This document shows, piece by piece, positions 220 through 37,863 of a DNA stretch of 38,322 nucleotides. Every line of letters starts with the position of its first letter. The first letter of the stretch is position 1. The stretch lies in IMG/VR virus record IMGVR_UViG_3300030202_000690, positions 1 to 38,322 of that record, one strand, 5' to 3'. Made by a program: the position numbers and the translations under genes. The DNA is from a virus. The notes below the pieces were generated by a model. It was not told the DNA's origin. It was given only the letters and a program-made list of their open reading frames with translations, and searched no databases.

Positions 220-437
220 ATTTTTTCATCCCATAATTTCATATCAGGGCTACTCCAAAATTCGCCTTCAAATATATTCCATTTTCGCCTACATTCAGGA
301 CACCAAAATAATGATTCGTCAGCTCTAATTTCATCTGTTTTATGATTTTCTCTATTTCTTTTTTCTATAATAGGGCTATCGAGTGCATCAATAACCCATT
401 GTATAGAATCAAATTTTCTTGTTTTCTGTTTCGGCAA
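189..437 (-). CDS. 82-aa zinc-ribbon-like protein, TTG start
   Basis: Small protein with two Cys pairs, CPEC (about residues 46-49) and CQDC (74-77), typical of a zinc ribbon, separated by an acidic, Trp-rich stretch. No catalytic motif is seen and the function is unknown. The start is TTG, preceded by AGGTGG about 5 nt upstream, and it overlaps the end of the upstream MazG-like gene by 29 nt. The second copy at 37615-37863 keeps the frame and both Cys pairs with 7 residue changes, which supports a real gene. Expression is probably coupled to its neighbours. Confidence 0.7.
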   Translation of the reverse strand: MPKQKTRKFDSIQWVIDALDSPIIEKRNRENHKTDEIRADESLFWCPECRRKWNIFEGEFWSSPDMKLWDEKICQDCDSPVK

Positions 438-3509: not shown

Positions 3510-5145
3510 AATACTTCCCATTAGTCAAGTTATATTTTAGCTTTGCAGGATTCCCTTGATTTGGTTTTCCGTTCTTATACTGAAACCTTATTTTATGCAC
3601 ATGTACACCTGCATAATCATCCTCATCTGATTTATGTCTATGGATAGTTATTGCATTATCACACTTATTAAACCAATTAGCTGAACCACTTATATCGTAA
3701 GGTGTAGGAACTAAAGGTTTTCTATCAATACCATTCTCCATTTTTTTGGGATGAGCAACTAACCAAACATGAATCTCATTTACTTTTGCAAAGGCACTTA
3801 ACTGAGCCAACACTCTTGAAACATATAAAGTCTCATTCTCTCCATCTCCAAACTTATGTTCTAAAGTATTCCACGGATCAATAATAAGACCATTTAAACC
3901 AAATCTATAATTAAGTATTTTAGCTTGTTCCATAATAGACTCAATAGTAACTGAATCTTCTTGTGTACCTATAAACTTAATGTGGTCATTTAATATTAAC
4001 ATAGAATCTCTTGCTGTCTTTTCATCTAATTTATTATCCCCCCAAAATGGTCTACCTGCAAATTTGCCTACCAGTTTTAATAAATGATGCTCAACTGGAA
4101 AATTTTCTGCTGAGAATATACCAAACTTCCAACCATAAGACTGAACCATATTAATCATCAAAGCATCCATCCATTCTGACTTCCCCATATTTGGTACACC
4201 TGTCACAACTGTGACTTCAGATGGACTGATTAAATAATGAGGATCAACTGCACTCCACCCTGTAGATAAACCCTTATGTTGAGGCTTTAATAATAAATCA
4301 ATAGCATCATCTTCAATATCTTGAACCATCACAACCCCATCGATTGGGTAGGGGTGTGAGTTACTTACAATGTTCTGAACTTCATCTTCTCCATGCTTTA
4401 TAAGTACATCATTCATATCTTTACATCCATCAGGATATACTACTCTATAGCATTTTTCCCTACCTATTCGCCTAGATAATTCATCTCTTAGGTGTTTACC
4501 TGCCCCATCAGAATCTGTGCATAATATGATAGTCTCAGCATTCATTAAATGTTCTTCTGCTGATAATAAAAAACTAAACTTTCTATCTGATGGCTTACTA
4601 TTAGGTTGTGTTGCTCCATCAGGCACAGATACAACATTCATAAATCCAGACTGAACTAAAGCAAGAGCATCCATTTCGCCTTCTGTTATTATAATAGTCT
4701 CCATACCTTTCATAGAATCAAATCTATAAAAACATTTCTCTGCATTTTTAGTTTGTCTAAATTTCTTATCTGCTGTTCTTGATTTTATATTAACCACTTC
4801 CCCATCTTTATAAAAAGGAAATTGTATCCACCTATTATCGTAACCTATTTTCTCTGCATCAACAACTGCTCTAGTAATGCACCTCTCTTCAAACCATTTA
4901 TAAACTTCTTCAGGTAATTCTGTTTTTGGAGGGTTAGGTTTTTCTATAGGAATAGTTAGATGTTTAACTTTTTTCTTTAGTGATCCTTTCCAACCACAAT
5001 GATGACAATGCCATATTCCCTCATCAACATTAACAGACAAACATTGGTCTGACTTATTCTTTCTAGTATGTGAACACTTAGGACATGTAGTTTTTTCTTG
5101 TCTAGATGTCCCCCTAATAAATATACCATGCTCCTCAAATGTCAT
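3463..5145 (-). CDS. T7 gp4-like DNA primase-helicase
   Basis: A 560-aa fusion with an N-terminal zinc-binding domain (C21, C24, C47, C50), a TOPRIM primase core (E155-G-E157 and D211-x-D213 in CTDSDGAGK), and a C-terminal RecA/DnaB-type helicase with Walker A GVPNMGKS (316-323), a Walker B-like strand (LNGLIIDPWN) and a VAHP switch motif. It would unwind DNA and synthesise primers at the fork. No phage DNA polymerase is present, so the host replicase probably extends the primers. It has an AGGAGG ribosome site and a 4-nt ATGA overlap with the initiator gene upstream. KVKHLT (59-64) is encoded by palindrome copy 2. Confidence 0.95.
   Translation of the reverse strand: MTFEEHGIFIRGTSRQEKTTCPKCSHTRKNKSDQCLSVNVDEGIWHCHHCGWKGSLKKKVKHLTIPIEKPNPPKTELPEEVYKWFEERCITRAVVDAEKIGYDNRWIQFPFYKDGEVVNIKSRTADKKFRQTKNAEKCFYRFDSMKGMETIIITEGEMDALALVQSGFMNVVSVPDGATQPNSKPSDRKFSFLLSAEEHLMNAETIILCTDSDGAGKHLRDELSRRIGREKCYRVVYPDGCKDMNDVLIKHGEDEVQNIVSNSHPYPIDGVVMVQDIEDDAIDLLLKPQHKGLSTGWSAVDPHYLISPSEVTVVTGVPNMGKSEWMDALMINMVQSYGWKFGIFSAENFPVEHHLLKLVGKFAGRPFWGDNKLDEKTARDSMLILNDHIKFIGTQEDSVTIESIMEQAKILNYRFGLNGLIIDPWNTLEHKFGDGENETLYVSRVLAQLSAFAKVNEIHVWLVAHPKKMENGIDRKPLVPTPYDISGSANWFNKCDNAITIHRHKSDEDDYAGVHVHKIRFQYKNGKPNQGNPAKLKYNLTNGKYYEYFEEERFKENLFG
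4954..4969 (+). repeat. Dispersed 16-bp palindrome, copy 2 (inside primase-helicase)
   Basis: AGTTAGATGTTTAACT followed by TTTTTTC on the plus strand. It is identical over 16 bp to copies 1 and 6, and lies in the linker between the zinc domain and TOPRIM, where it encodes KVKHLT. Confidence 0.7.
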
Positions 5146-5927
5146 ACTTTTCCTCCTCTAGTATTGTATGCTGTTAATATATTATGAAATTTAATATTGC
5201 CATTATTTGACTTATGTCTTAATGTATGTAATGATGTTACTTGAGAGTGCCAAAACTTATCTCCTAATGTATAATCTAAAACATCACAAACAACATTATA
5301 ATTAACCTTATCTAATTTAATTAAATCGTATAATGTATTGATTGATTTATTAAGTAAATCTGTTTCATCCTTACCTTCAAATAAATGAGGAAATCTTTTT
5401 TTCTGCTTATGTAAAAAATTAGATGCCACATTTCTCAATGCAATTAATTGTTCAGCATTTATGTTTTTATTTATAGGGGTAATGGGTTTATTGCCATCGG
5501 TATATATTTTACTTATATTATTATTACTTAATAATGTTTGGGTATTCTGAATATAGGTAAGGGCATCATCTCCTCTTAAGGTATCACTAACCCCTAGATT
5601 ATTTTGCATATAGGGGTTATCACTATTTTGATTAACCCATAGGAAATTCTGCATAGGGGTAATACATCTTTTTATAAACTTCTCTGTACCCTTTTCTAAT
5701 ATAGTTTGTACATATACAAAACCATAATTTCTTAGTTCTGCAATACTTCTAGATGCTGTATCCTTAGAAATATTTAAGACCTTACTAAAATAAATATTCC
5801 TTTTTATACATGTACCATCATCTTCTAAACAAGCTATAATTTCAGCATATATTAATTTAGAATTTGCTTTTAATTTCTGATGATGTAATATTGTTTTTGG
5901 TATAATACCATAGAATGCACTTTTCAT
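5142..5927 (-). CDS. Replication initiator with winged-helix N-terminus
   Basis: A 261-aa protein. Residues 1-95 look like a phage winged-helix module (KANSKLIYAEIIACLEDDG, then DTASRSIAELRNYGFV as recognition helix). The middle is low in structure, and a C-terminal helical domain ends KFHNILTAY, like DnaD/O-type replication proteins that load helicase. Placed directly upstream of the primase-helicase with a 4-nt overlap, it is the likely origin-binding initiator. Its linker-coding region carries the repeated TAGGGGTNA elements (5473-5663), as lambda O carries its own origin. AAGGAGG site before the ATG. Initiator role is inferred from fold pattern and context. Confidence 0.7.
   Translation of the reverse strand: MKSAFYGIIPKTILHHQKLKANSKLIYAEIIACLEDDGTCIKRNIYFSKVLNISKDTASRSIAELRNYGFVYVQTILEKGTEKFIKRCITPMQNFLWVNQNSDNPYMQNNLGVSDTLRGDDALTYIQNTQTLLSNNNISKIYTDGNKPITPINKNINAEQLIALRNVASNFLHKQKKRFPHLFEGKDETDLLNKSINTLYDLIKLDKVNYNVVCDVLDYTLGDKFWHSQVTSLHTLRHKSNNGNIKFHNILTAYNTRGGKV
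5473..5663. other. Candidate replication origin: iteron-like repeats inside initiator gene
   Basis: Repeated element ATAGGGGT(A/T)AT on the plus strand at 5473-5483, 5610-5620 and 5653-5663, with an inverted copy TAACCCCTA at 5588-5596. Degenerate relatives lie at 5551-5563 and 5633-5640. The 5588-5596 and 5611-5619 copies face each other as an inverted pair. The interval 5500-5550 is very A+T-rich, like an unwinding element. Position inside the middle of the initiator gene matches lambdoid origins. No binding data; origin function is inferred. Confidence 0.5.
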
Positions 5928-9876: not shown

Positions 9877-10443
9877 TTAAAATTCAAAATCCATTAATTC
9901 ATCAAAGCAATCAGAAAAAGTTTGATGTTTAACTTTTTTACCTGTTTTTTCTATTCTATAAATTCTTTTTACTTGGTGTTTTCTTCCTTCAGTCCAATCA
10001 TTTACAATTCCATCTTTAACCCCGATAACATGACCTCTGACACCTAAAATATAATTATCTATAGGTAGGTAGTCGCTTTGATTATTTGGTGTAATATTCT
10101 TATCAATTATACAAAGTTGCTCTTTATTATCGGGAACAAATTTTGGGCTATAATATCTATAATCCCTAGAATAATCATGTGAACCTGATACCCACTTTCT
10201 GATGTCTCCATTGTAGGTAGGTCTAAAAAGAGTAATTTTATACCCTTCAGTTTTAGCTAATTCTTGCATAATTCTTTCAGTATGGAAAGGCAACAAACCT
10301 CTATTTTTTTTCCTGCCATTAGACATATAAAACTTATGCACTTTTTTATAATCCATGTTAAAAGCAACAGAACTAGCAACGATAGTGCATTGATTATTAT
10401 CGTTTTTAAACTCTGTAGTTTTTTCTATTTCTTTAATGTTCAT
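9877..10443 (-). CDS. Papain-like cysteine peptidase
   Basis: A 188-aa protein with NNQC19T as likely oxyanion Gln plus catalytic Cys at the start of a helix, the conserved GRKKNRG stretch (43-49), and RGH138VIGVKDG followed by N148-D149, giving a C-H-D/N triad as in papain-fold peptidases or transglutaminase-like enzymes. Substrate unknown; host-takeover or peptidoglycan/protein cleavage are options. The start at 10443 is set by GGAGG 4 nt upstream. That ribosome site directly follows hammerhead ribozyme B, so this mRNA is predicted to begin 17 nt before its start codon after self-cleavage. KVKHQT near the end is encoded by palindrome copy 4. Confidence 0.65.
   Translation of the reverse strand: MNIKEIEKTTEFKNDNNQCTIVASSVAFNMDYKKVHKFYMSNGRKKNRGLLPFHTERIMQELAKTEGYKITLFRPTYNGDIRKWVSGSHDYSRDYRYYSPKFVPDNKEQLCIIDKNITPNNQSDYLPIDNYILGVRGHVIGVKDGIVNDWTEGRKHQVKRIYRIEKTGKKVKHQTFSDCFDELMDFEF
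9919..9934 (+). repeat. Dispersed 16-bp palindrome, copy 4 (inside peptidase gene)
   Basis: AGTTTGATGTTTAACT then TTTTTTACC on the plus strand, one base different from the main form. It encodes KVKHQT near the C-terminus of the cysteine peptidase. Confidence 0.6.
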
Positions 10444-10452
10444 AATTCCTCC

Positions 10453-10509
10453 AATTATAGACGGCATATAAATGCCGTTTCGCTTTTGTTAAAGCTCATC
10501 AGTATAATT
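10453..10509 (-). ncRNA. Hammerhead ribozyme B (type I)
   Basis: Read on the minus strand: stem I AAUUAUA (10509-10503) pairs perfectly with UAUAAUU (10459-10453). Core CUGAUGA (10502-10496). Stem II GCUUU/AAAGC with loop AACA. GAA then A15.1 (10478). Stem III ACGGCAU/AUGCCGU, 7 bp with loop UUAU. Predicted cleavage follows GUC, between 10460 and 10459. Every invariant hammerhead core position is present, including G10.1-C11.1 and A15.1-U16.1. Stem I begins within the stop codon of the 191-aa gene and ends directly against the GGAGG site of the cysteine peptidase. Cleavage would give a 5'-OH mRNA for the peptidase. Confidence 0.93.
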
Positions 10510-11084
10510 TAAGACGCTTTTTTGACCTCCAATTCATCCAAAATTTGAGTATCTGTCATCTGAGTTTGAATCCATTCTAGCAAGTCATTTGGGAATTTAT
10601 CATGTTTAGTCATTAACTTTTGTAATTCCTCTTCAAAGACTTTTTCCTCAGTTACTTTCTTTGCCTCGATAATTACCTTAAAAAGTCCTAAATCCTTATC
10701 TTTGAATAGATTTTTATTCAAACATTTATCGCCCTCTAGAACACCATTATTAACCTTTTTAATGGTTATTAGCTTTGTTTTGACATCATCACCCAACAGC
10801 CTACGCTGAACAGATTTTGCTTTAACTAGAACTTGTAATCTAGTTTTAACCCATTTTTTCGTGGCTGTAATTTTCGCAGGTGTTTCAGTAGCATAAATTC
10901 TATCGAGTTCCTTTGTTAGCATGGTTTCAGCGTTTTTCTTATTAGCAAGAAATATATCCCTTGTGATAATATCAACCATAAAAACTTCCATTTTTGCTGT
11001 CTGCATTCCACCCTTAACAACTTTAGAAATTTCTTCTTCAGTTACTTTCTCGGCTGATGTCATTTTTTCAATTATATTCTTCAT
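10509..11084 (-). CDS. 191-aa protein bracketed by two hammerhead ribozymes
   Basis: Starts MKNIIEKMTSAEKVTEEEI and is Lys/Glu-rich and predicted mostly helical; a basic middle (ATKKWVKTRLQVLVKAKSVQRR, about residues 74-95) could touch nucleic acid. No family recognised. AAAGGT lies 5 nt before the ATG. Ribozyme A ends about 20 nt upstream of the start codon and ribozyme B starts in its stop codon, so double cleavage would release a roughly 650-nt RNA carrying this whole gene. The segment EEKVFEEELQKLM near the C-terminus suggests a coiled coil. Confidence 0.75.
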   Translation of the reverse strand: MKNIIEKMTSAEKVTEEEISKVVKGGMQTAKMEVFMVDIITRDIFLANKKNAETMLTKELDRIYATETPAKITATKKWVKTRLQVLVKAKSVQRRLLGDDVKTKLITIKKVNNGVLEGDKCLNKNLFKDKDLGLFKVIIEAKKVTEEKVFEEELQKLMTKHDKFPNDLLEWIQTQMTDTQILDELEVKKAS

Positions 11085-11103
11085 TTTTTACCTTTCATTA
11101 TTT

Positions 11104-11159
11104 GATTAAGACGCTGAAATGAATCAGCGTTTCGACTATTAAAGCCTCTTCAGTTAATC
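11104..11159 (-). ncRNA. Hammerhead ribozyme A (type I)
   Basis: Read on the minus strand: stem I GAUUAA (11159-11154) pairs with UUAAUC (11109-11104). Core CUGAAGA (11153-11147; position 7 is variable in hammerheads). Stem II GGCU/AGUC, loop UUAAU, one G-U pair. GAA plus A15.1 (11130). Stem III ACGCUGA/UCAGCGU, 7 bp, loop UUCAUU. Cleavage predicted after GUC, between 11110 and 11109. Compared with ribozyme B all three stems differ in sequence but keep pairing, while the core is kept. It starts in the stop codon of the 43-aa gene and ends just before the AAAGGT site of the 191-aa gene. Confidence 0.92.
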
Positions 11160-11290
11160 TATTTAAAATTAAAAATATCTTTTCTATCAGTCCAAATTTG
11201 ATGTAAAAAAGCACCAAAACCCATGCTAAGAATAGTTACTATTAATTCATAAAACATTAATTGATTTTGTGTTAATGTTATTGTCTCCAT
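11159..11290 (-). CDS. 43-aa membrane peptide
   Basis: Begins METITLTQNQLMFYELIVTILSMGFGAFLH: one predicted transmembrane segment (about 12-29) and a charged tail ending IFNFK. AAAGGG lies 6 nt before the ATG. Its TAG contributes the first base of ribozyme A stem I. It is the second gene of the leftward operon. Role unknown. Confidence 0.6.
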   Translation of the reverse strand: METITLTQNQLMFYELIVTILSMGFGAFLHQIWTDRKDIFNFK

Positions 11291-11291
11291 T

Positions 11292-11579
11292 TTAAACCCT
11301 TTCCAAAGTTAATTCATTACTTAAAAACTCAAATGTCTTTCCGTCATATTCTACGAACCAGTCAAAATTCTTCTGATAAACTCTAAATCCTAAATCAAAT
11401 TGGTTTGATGTTTGGTTCATTCTTGTTTTAGTTGTGTTAGTCTCAAATCCGCCTGTGTTAAGTGTTATTGTATCCTCATTAAACGACACCACATTTGTCC
11501 AATGATACTTAACAAATGTTGTGTTTTCATGAGTAAAAACAGATGTTTTATGAGAACCGATTGTATCTAAACTAGCCAT
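11292..11579 (-). CDS. 95-aa leader gene of the early operon, unknown function
   Basis: Beta-rich, Thr/Asn-rich protein starting MASLDTIGSHKTSVFTHEN, with aromatic-containing strands (FDLGFRVYQKNFDWFVEYDG). Not recognised. GAAAGGT lies 9 nt before the ATG. First gene downstream of the leftward promoter near 11706-11733, so likely among the earliest and most abundant products. Confidence 0.65.
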   Translation of the reverse strand: MASLDTIGSHKTSVFTHENTTFVKYHWTNVVSFNEDTITLNTGGFETNTTKTRMNQTSNQFDLGFRVYQKNFDWFVEYDGKTFEFLSNELTLERV

Positions 11580-11655
11580 AATTAATTACCTTTCATTTTA
11601 TTTTGAGTTCAAAGGTACTTTAAATCTTTTCAACATGTCAAGGAATTTTTTAATT

Positions 11656-37645: not shown

Positions 37646-37863
37646 ATTTTTTCATCCCATAGTTTCATATCAGGACTACTCCACATTTCGCCCTCAAATA
37701 TATTCCATTTTCTTTTACATTCAGGACACCAGAATAATGATTCATCAGCCCTGATTTCATCTGTTTTATGATTCTCTCTATTTCTTTTTTCTATGATCGG
37801 ACTATCAAGTGCATCAATAACCCATTGTATAGAATCAAGTTTTCGTGTTTTTTCTTTCGGCAA
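37615..37863 (-). CDS. 82-aa zinc-ribbon-like protein (second copy)
   Basis: Same gene as 189-437 in another haplotype: CPEC and CLDC pairs kept, TTG start with AGGTGG upstream kept, 7 residue changes mainly near the C-terminus. Confidence 0.7.
   Translation of the reverse strand: MPKEKTRKLDSIQWVIDALDSPIIEKRNRENHKTDEIRADESLFWCPECKRKWNIFEGEMWSSPDMKLWDEKICLDCDFLVK

Follow-up and report, generated by a model that had tools for sequence, protein, structure and literature searches.

Clusters of hammerhead ribozymes that flank single genes or short blocks of genes were reported from prophages by Perreault et al. (2011; PMC3088659), who proposed that they segment mRNA. According to the available part of that paper, such arrays are active in vitro and in E. 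coli, including a triple array around ardA of Agrobacterium tumefaciens, and no spliced or circular products were detected. The same part describes HHphage of haloviruses HF1 and HF2, a hammerhead that lies a few nucleotides before the start of an early gene. In HF2, a transcript end was mapped no more than 3 nt from the hammerhead cut, 13 nt upstream of the early gene. Other small self-cleaving RNAs offer partial parallels. The theta ribozymes of gut phages (PMC10879173) are likewise found widely among uncultivated phages and linked to the maturation of RNA, but have an HDV-like fold and adjoin tRNAs. In retrozymes and viroid-like circular RNAs (PMC7761336), RNA units are bounded by two hammerhead cuts.

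The window analysed here is the whole 38,322 nt of the virus record IMGVR_UViG_3300030202_000690. Its minus strand carries two hammerheads, HH-A (11104-11159) and HH-B (10453-10509), with a single gene for a 191-aa protein between them (10509-11084). The arrangement is a known one at a new locus, and the claim of an earlier note on this DNA that no phage operon punctuated in this way had been described is wrong, such clusters having been reported in PMC3088659. As in those prophage clusters, so far as the available text describes them, at least two hammerheads on one strand flank a gene of a phage operon, several occur in one transcription unit, single genes or short blocks are enclosed, and the enclosed genes vary. 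The window differs in having type I elements only, of about 56 nt, with a stem I that stops at 6-7 bp, in the conserved placement of the ribozymes on stop codons (a placement we did not find in the available text of PMC3088659), and in forming an orthologous cassette over 48-98% protein identity. Cleavage was shown for the earlier clusters, whereas the elements of the window are known from sequence alone. HHphage of HF1/HF2 shares with the window the position just before a gene start, but is a single ribozyme with a variant core in a virus of an archaeal halophile. What is new here is the wider pattern, a compact and regularly placed subclass that falls below Rfam thresholds wherever tested.

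Both elements have the type I order of parts, with an open stem I, closed stems II and III and a perfect core (CUGANGA ... GAA-A ... UH). In HH-A, the strands of stem I (GAUUAA, 11159-11154, and UUAAUC, 11109-11104) enclose the core CUGAAGA (11153-11147), stem II GGCU(UUAAU)AGUC (11146-11134), GAA (11133-11131), stem III with the strands ACGCUGA and UCAGCGU (11130-11111) and C17 (11110), and the predicted cut lies at 11110/11109. The corresponding parts of HH-B are stem I (AAUUAUA, 10509-10503, and UAUAAUU, 10459-10453), the core CUGAUGA (10502-10496), stem II GCUUU(AACA)AAAGC (10495-10482), GAA (10481-10479), stem III with ACGGCAU and AUGCCGU (10478-10461) and C17 (10460), with the cut predicted at 10460/10459. 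The hammerhead fold is predicted for each element in isolation (z of -2.0 for HH-A and -2.4 for HH-B). A covariance model found only these two elements when scanned across the window (68.1 and 60.8 bits; next match E 0.83), scores that are partly a matter of construction since the 42 phage hammerheads used for training include the window copies and their orthologues. A finder requiring the core and three stems returned no match in 1.1 Mb of shuffled sequence.

Rfam 15 gave no match in the window at gathering thresholds. In E-value mode, HH-B matched Hammerhead_HH9 (28.7 bits, E 2.5e-4), and the best sub-threshold match of both elements was RAGATH-1-hammerhead (RF03152), which also has a type I core and whose open stem I is about as long. 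The scores of 29.4 bits (HH-A) and 27.7 bits (HH-B) are half of its gathering value of 56.3, and its extra upstream stem is not formed in the window elements.

One alternative is that the elements are not ribozymes but intrinsic terminators or chance hairpins. Stem III does resemble a terminator stem, and the complement of the HH-B stem III region on the plus strand (10459-10480) is scored as an intrinsic terminator. However, stem III is not followed by a terminator-like U-tract on the sense strand, which rules out an intrinsic terminator there, and neither a terminator nor chance would account for a full hammerhead core absent from shuffled sequence or for covariation in three stems. We give this alternative almost no credence, and regard the identity of HH-A and HH-B as hammerheads as practically certain. 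That they cleave in the cell is very probable, at a somewhat lower level of confidence. Stem I ends at 6 bp without an internal loop to dock with loop II, and no loop II contact is recognisable, which could make cleavage slow at the magnesium levels of a cell.

The operon that contains the pair runs leftward on the minus strand. It is headed by a promoter-like sequence, TTGACA-N18-TACCTTTG (11610-11641), with a Bacteroidota-like TAnnTTTG -7 element, followed by a first gene of 95 aa (11292-11579; Pfam Kyano_Gp96, 2e-13; phrog_554, 5e-17) and a 43-aa ORF (11159-11290). The stop codon of this ORF, UAG at 11161-11159, supplies the first base of HH-A, its G beginning stem I. Past HH-A come the ribosome site AAAGG (11095-11091) and the AUG of the 191-aa gene at 11084, 25 nt from the cut. 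That gene ends in UAA (10511-10509), the final A of which begins stem I of HH-B; past HH-B, the Shine-Dalgarno sequence GGAGG (10452-10448) precedes the AUG at 10443 of the next gene (9877-10443), 16 nt from the cut. Thus the anatomy given in the earlier note holds in full: two ribozymes around one gene, each starting within the preceding stop codon and ending before the next ribosome site. Its coordinates for the RNA that double cleavage would release were also right, a predicted 650 nt (10460-11109, minus strand) with a 5'-OH at 11109 and a 2',3'-cyclic phosphate at 10460, as follows from the cut sites. We also considered whether the uncut ribozyme hides the ribosome site and rejected the idea: a weak pairing is present in the window, but by inspection it is not conserved.

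The 191-aa protein belongs to no known family; Pfam gave no match and PHROG only a weak one. AlphaFold2 models reached a mean pLDDT of 67 with nine sequences and 42 with close relatives, and the former gave no confident match in the PDB. We found one viral homologue, A0A516M4L5. The downstream protein matches phrog_3754 (2.6e-13), a family of unknown function; C20, H139 and D150 are invariant in its relatives, and this pattern suggests a papain-like peptidase. No relatives were detected among named phages, whether by DNA comparison or by tblastn with the two proteins of the pair, for which several family members served as queries.

The earlier note had also proposed a search for paired hammerheads around homologues of the 191-aa protein, and these were found in ten IMG/VR records with 48-98% protein identity, which with the window represent eight distinct versions. 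Both ribozymes occur at the same places in all ten, and the eight of these records that were searched whole contain exactly two hammerheads each. The homologues were picked by protein search, independently of RNA structure, with the exception of L083, which first surfaced in a ribozyme pattern scan and was then confirmed by protein search. Across the eight versions, 100% of the cells of HH-A are paired, with 17 compensatory cells, compared with 23-37% when the partners are shifted by up to three columns. In HH-B, 98% of the cells of stems I and III are paired and the nine compensatory cells are in stem III. Stem I of HH-B (AUUAUA/UAUAAU) is invariant among orthologues and so neutral as evidence, and stem II shows compensatory change by inspection, its alignment being too irregular for the counter. 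The catalytic core is invariant in all orthologues. Together, the invariant core and the compensatory changes in both elements point to selection for cleavage competence.

The gene upstream is far less constant. At least four unrelated types of ORF occur directly before HH-A, yet the stop codon is at the ribozyme edge every time. From this we infer that the ribozyme travels with the 191-aa gene and that exchange occurs at that edge. The swap falls exactly there in the window (11159-11290) and at the equivalent place in L002-L006, L083, L132 and L134.

A more distant relative, L137, has the same gene pair at 4974-5801. Its 165-aa homologue of the 191-aa protein is 34% identical across the alignment and 37% within the best segment, and the gene after it is a homologue of the peptidase-like gene downstream of HH-B. 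The two genes are 46 nt apart, which leaves no room for both a hammerhead and a ribosome site, and the hammerhead model had no match in the whole 10 kb record. The gene pair therefore exists without ribozymes in L137, through loss or later gain, and the ribozymes are dispensable for the gene. According to the earlier note, related phages with the gene but without ribozymes would refute its proposal; such a case exists at a distance, in L137, while all ten closer relatives keep both ribozymes.

These observations bear on the idea that the hammerheads are selfish or recombinational modules that hitch-hike at gene junctions and mark sites of gene exchange, with little effect on expression. The exchange of ORFs exactly at the edge of HH-A, the diversity of the genes that adjoin hammerheads and the ribozyme-free L137 would all fit such modules. 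Modules of this kind would not, however, be expected to keep an invariant core and to preserve their stems by compensatory changes in every orthologue, and we think this explanation rather improbable.

To place the locus, we collected compact type I hammerheads from an IMG/VR pattern scan (at least 120 stretches) and from related loci, which yielded at least 168 unique elements in phage contigs (loci L011-L129). Among the matches listed, 160 of the 168 have a stem I of exactly 6 bp, and pairing beyond it is at or below chance. An A is conserved beside stem I among these matches, on the 5' side in 162 of the 168 and on the 3' side in 148, which hints at a contact; HH-B lacks such an A. GC content among the matches listed is 35% in stem I and 61% in stem III, compared with 39% in the loci. 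The loop II consensus of the class is biased by the search pattern; the other features are not. Records with up to seven compact hammerheads occur among the matches listed (L121, L120), and seven type III candidates were also seen in the fetched IMG/VR loci.

The placement of these elements is regular, as judged from our own, crude gene calls. Among the matches listed, 119 of the 168 hammerheads lie between co-directional genes, the upstream stop codon falls no further than 20 nt from the ribozyme edge in 90% of the 144 measurable cases, and the median distance from cut to start codon is 27 nt. The commonest arrangements are a UAG that shares its G with stem I and a UGA inside the core, and the modes of stop-codon position relative to the ribozyme start are +1, 0 and +10, the last being the UGA of CUGA. 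Consecutive pairs within a locus (n = 66) enclose one gene in 23 cases, two in 16 and three or more in 26. The layout thus appears to be common in phages. At the Rfam gathering score, nothing was reported for ten class loci; for one class locus, E-value mode gave RAGATH-1-hammerhead at 25.9-28.6 bits (threshold 56.3) and Hammerhead_1 at 19.9 (threshold 34). A single scan of bacterial genomes returned 20 pattern matches, about the number given by a rough chance estimate, and only four were full hammerheads, three of them in Bacteroidota.

Hammerheads in general cut themselves to leave a 2',3'-cyclic phosphate on the upstream product and a 5'-OH on the downstream product, and for other RNAs such ends are known to alter decay. 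We consider operon punctuation by two cis-acting type I hammerheads, dividing the transcript into segments, to be the probable function of the pair, with real room for doubt. Transcription would run through, and each ribozyme would fold from the intergenic RNA once the upstream stop codon had been passed and cut after its GUC. The 3' end of the upstream mRNA would then consist of the G+C-rich hairpin of stem III and a single further nucleotide bearing the cyclic phosphate, because stem III ends one nucleotide before the cut, and the A+T-rich strands of stem I would favour separation of the products. The downstream mRNA would begin with a 5'-OH leader containing the ribosome site, of 25 nt for the 191-aa gene and 16 nt for the next gene. 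The 191-aa gene would thereby obtain a discrete linear mRNA of 650 nt with a lifetime uncoupled from those of its neighbours. By analogy, the ends may protect the RNA from decay that depends on a 5'-monophosphate or a 3' end at this locus, presumably to the benefit of the phage. Weighing against this reading are the predicted stem I probabilities with 110 nt of flank on each side, 0.03 for HH-A and 0.02 for HH-B (although the class mean is likewise low, at 0.20, and no worse than with shuffled flanks), the possibly slow cleavage and the ribozyme-free L137. The earlier note had proposed self-processing and, possibly, a circular product; of the two, self-processing to an mRNA for one gene best fits the anatomy and conservation, and the circle is not supported, as set out below.

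A second reading gives translation a controlling role. With the stop codon in the first strand or core of the ribozyme, a terminating ribosome would hold the catalytic strand open, so that cutting followed only when translation ended or failed, and the element would be a sensor coupling cleavage to translation of the upstream gene and not a constitutive cutter. The modes of stop-codon position (+1, 0, +10) fit this, as does the retention of the HH-A geometry despite different upstream ORFs. In addition, stem I forms well only when flanks are left out: its probability in the class is 0.68 without flanks and 0.20 with them. However, native flanks behave the same as shuffled flanks, which gives no hint of selected competition, and the idea that flanks were selected to help or hinder folding was rejected. 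Moreover, compact genomes alone would bring stop codon and ribozyme close together, and their packing may partly reflect this compactness. On balance we consider the ribosome-controlled version unlikely at this locus. We are equally reserved about its generalisation to a widespread phage system, in which a hammerhead woven into the stop codon would let termination gate cleavage, and every cistron would be released as a separate mRNA with about 25 nt of 5'-OH leader and a hairpin-capped 3' end.

Segmentation into linear mRNAs also has to be weighed against a circular, translatable mRNA, made from the released RNA by ribozyme re-ligation or by an RtcB-type ligase. The ends would be chemically suitable in principle. 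The ribozymes of retrozymes are copies of one monomer junction (PMC7761336), whereas HH-A and HH-B have different sequences in all three stems and do not form direct repeats. The 5' end of the fragment, UUAAUC, forms only two of six pairs with the HH-B strand AAUUAUA (two to three in the relatives tested), and the duplex is unfavourable at +0.3 kcal/mol, so HH-B would be a poor ligase for it. This result does not bear on a protein ligase, which would need no such pairing. Circular or spliced products were not found by Perreault et al. in the available part of their study (PMC3088659). We therefore find a circular mRNA from this locus very improbable.

Elsewhere in the class, the prospects for re-ligation differ. 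In L051, L038 and L016, successive hammerheads have the same stem I but different stems II and III, and the processed mRNAs of one such phage would therefore begin with the same six bases. In L051, five ribozymes share one stem I, and re-ligation or gene skipping is possible in such phages, judging by their stems. Adjacent pairs are fully compatible in 38% of cases among the loci listed, compared with 7% in shuffled sets. This likeness of stem I within genomes is significant, but we rejected it as evidence that circularisation is selected, because the stem III sequences of a locus also resemble one another and common descent may account for the pattern.

The promoter-like sequence bears on both timing and host. 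TTGACA-N18-TAnnTTTG is also found upstream of the operon in L083, L132, L134, L135 and L136; by itself, TAnnTTTG occurs in the window about as often as expected by chance, and it is the conserved position that counts. The earlier note's description of the operon as early is consistent with this sequence and with the operon's position, and we retain it provisionally on those two grounds. The promoter layout in the five relatives, together with the few bacterial hammerheads, suggests a Bacteroidota host. Terminase matches, at below 60% identity, give no host. Separately, similar minus-strand sequences near the two ends of the window (283-322 and 37709-37748) suggest a duplicated gene or related end genes.

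The locus described here is a clean test case for the role of hammerheads in phages and bacteria, with two ribozymes, one gene, fixed cuts, conserved orthologues and a distant relative free of ribozymes. Given that the same regular layout of stop codon, ribozyme, short leader and start codon recurs in many phages below library thresholds, self-segmenting operons may be much more common than annotation indicates.
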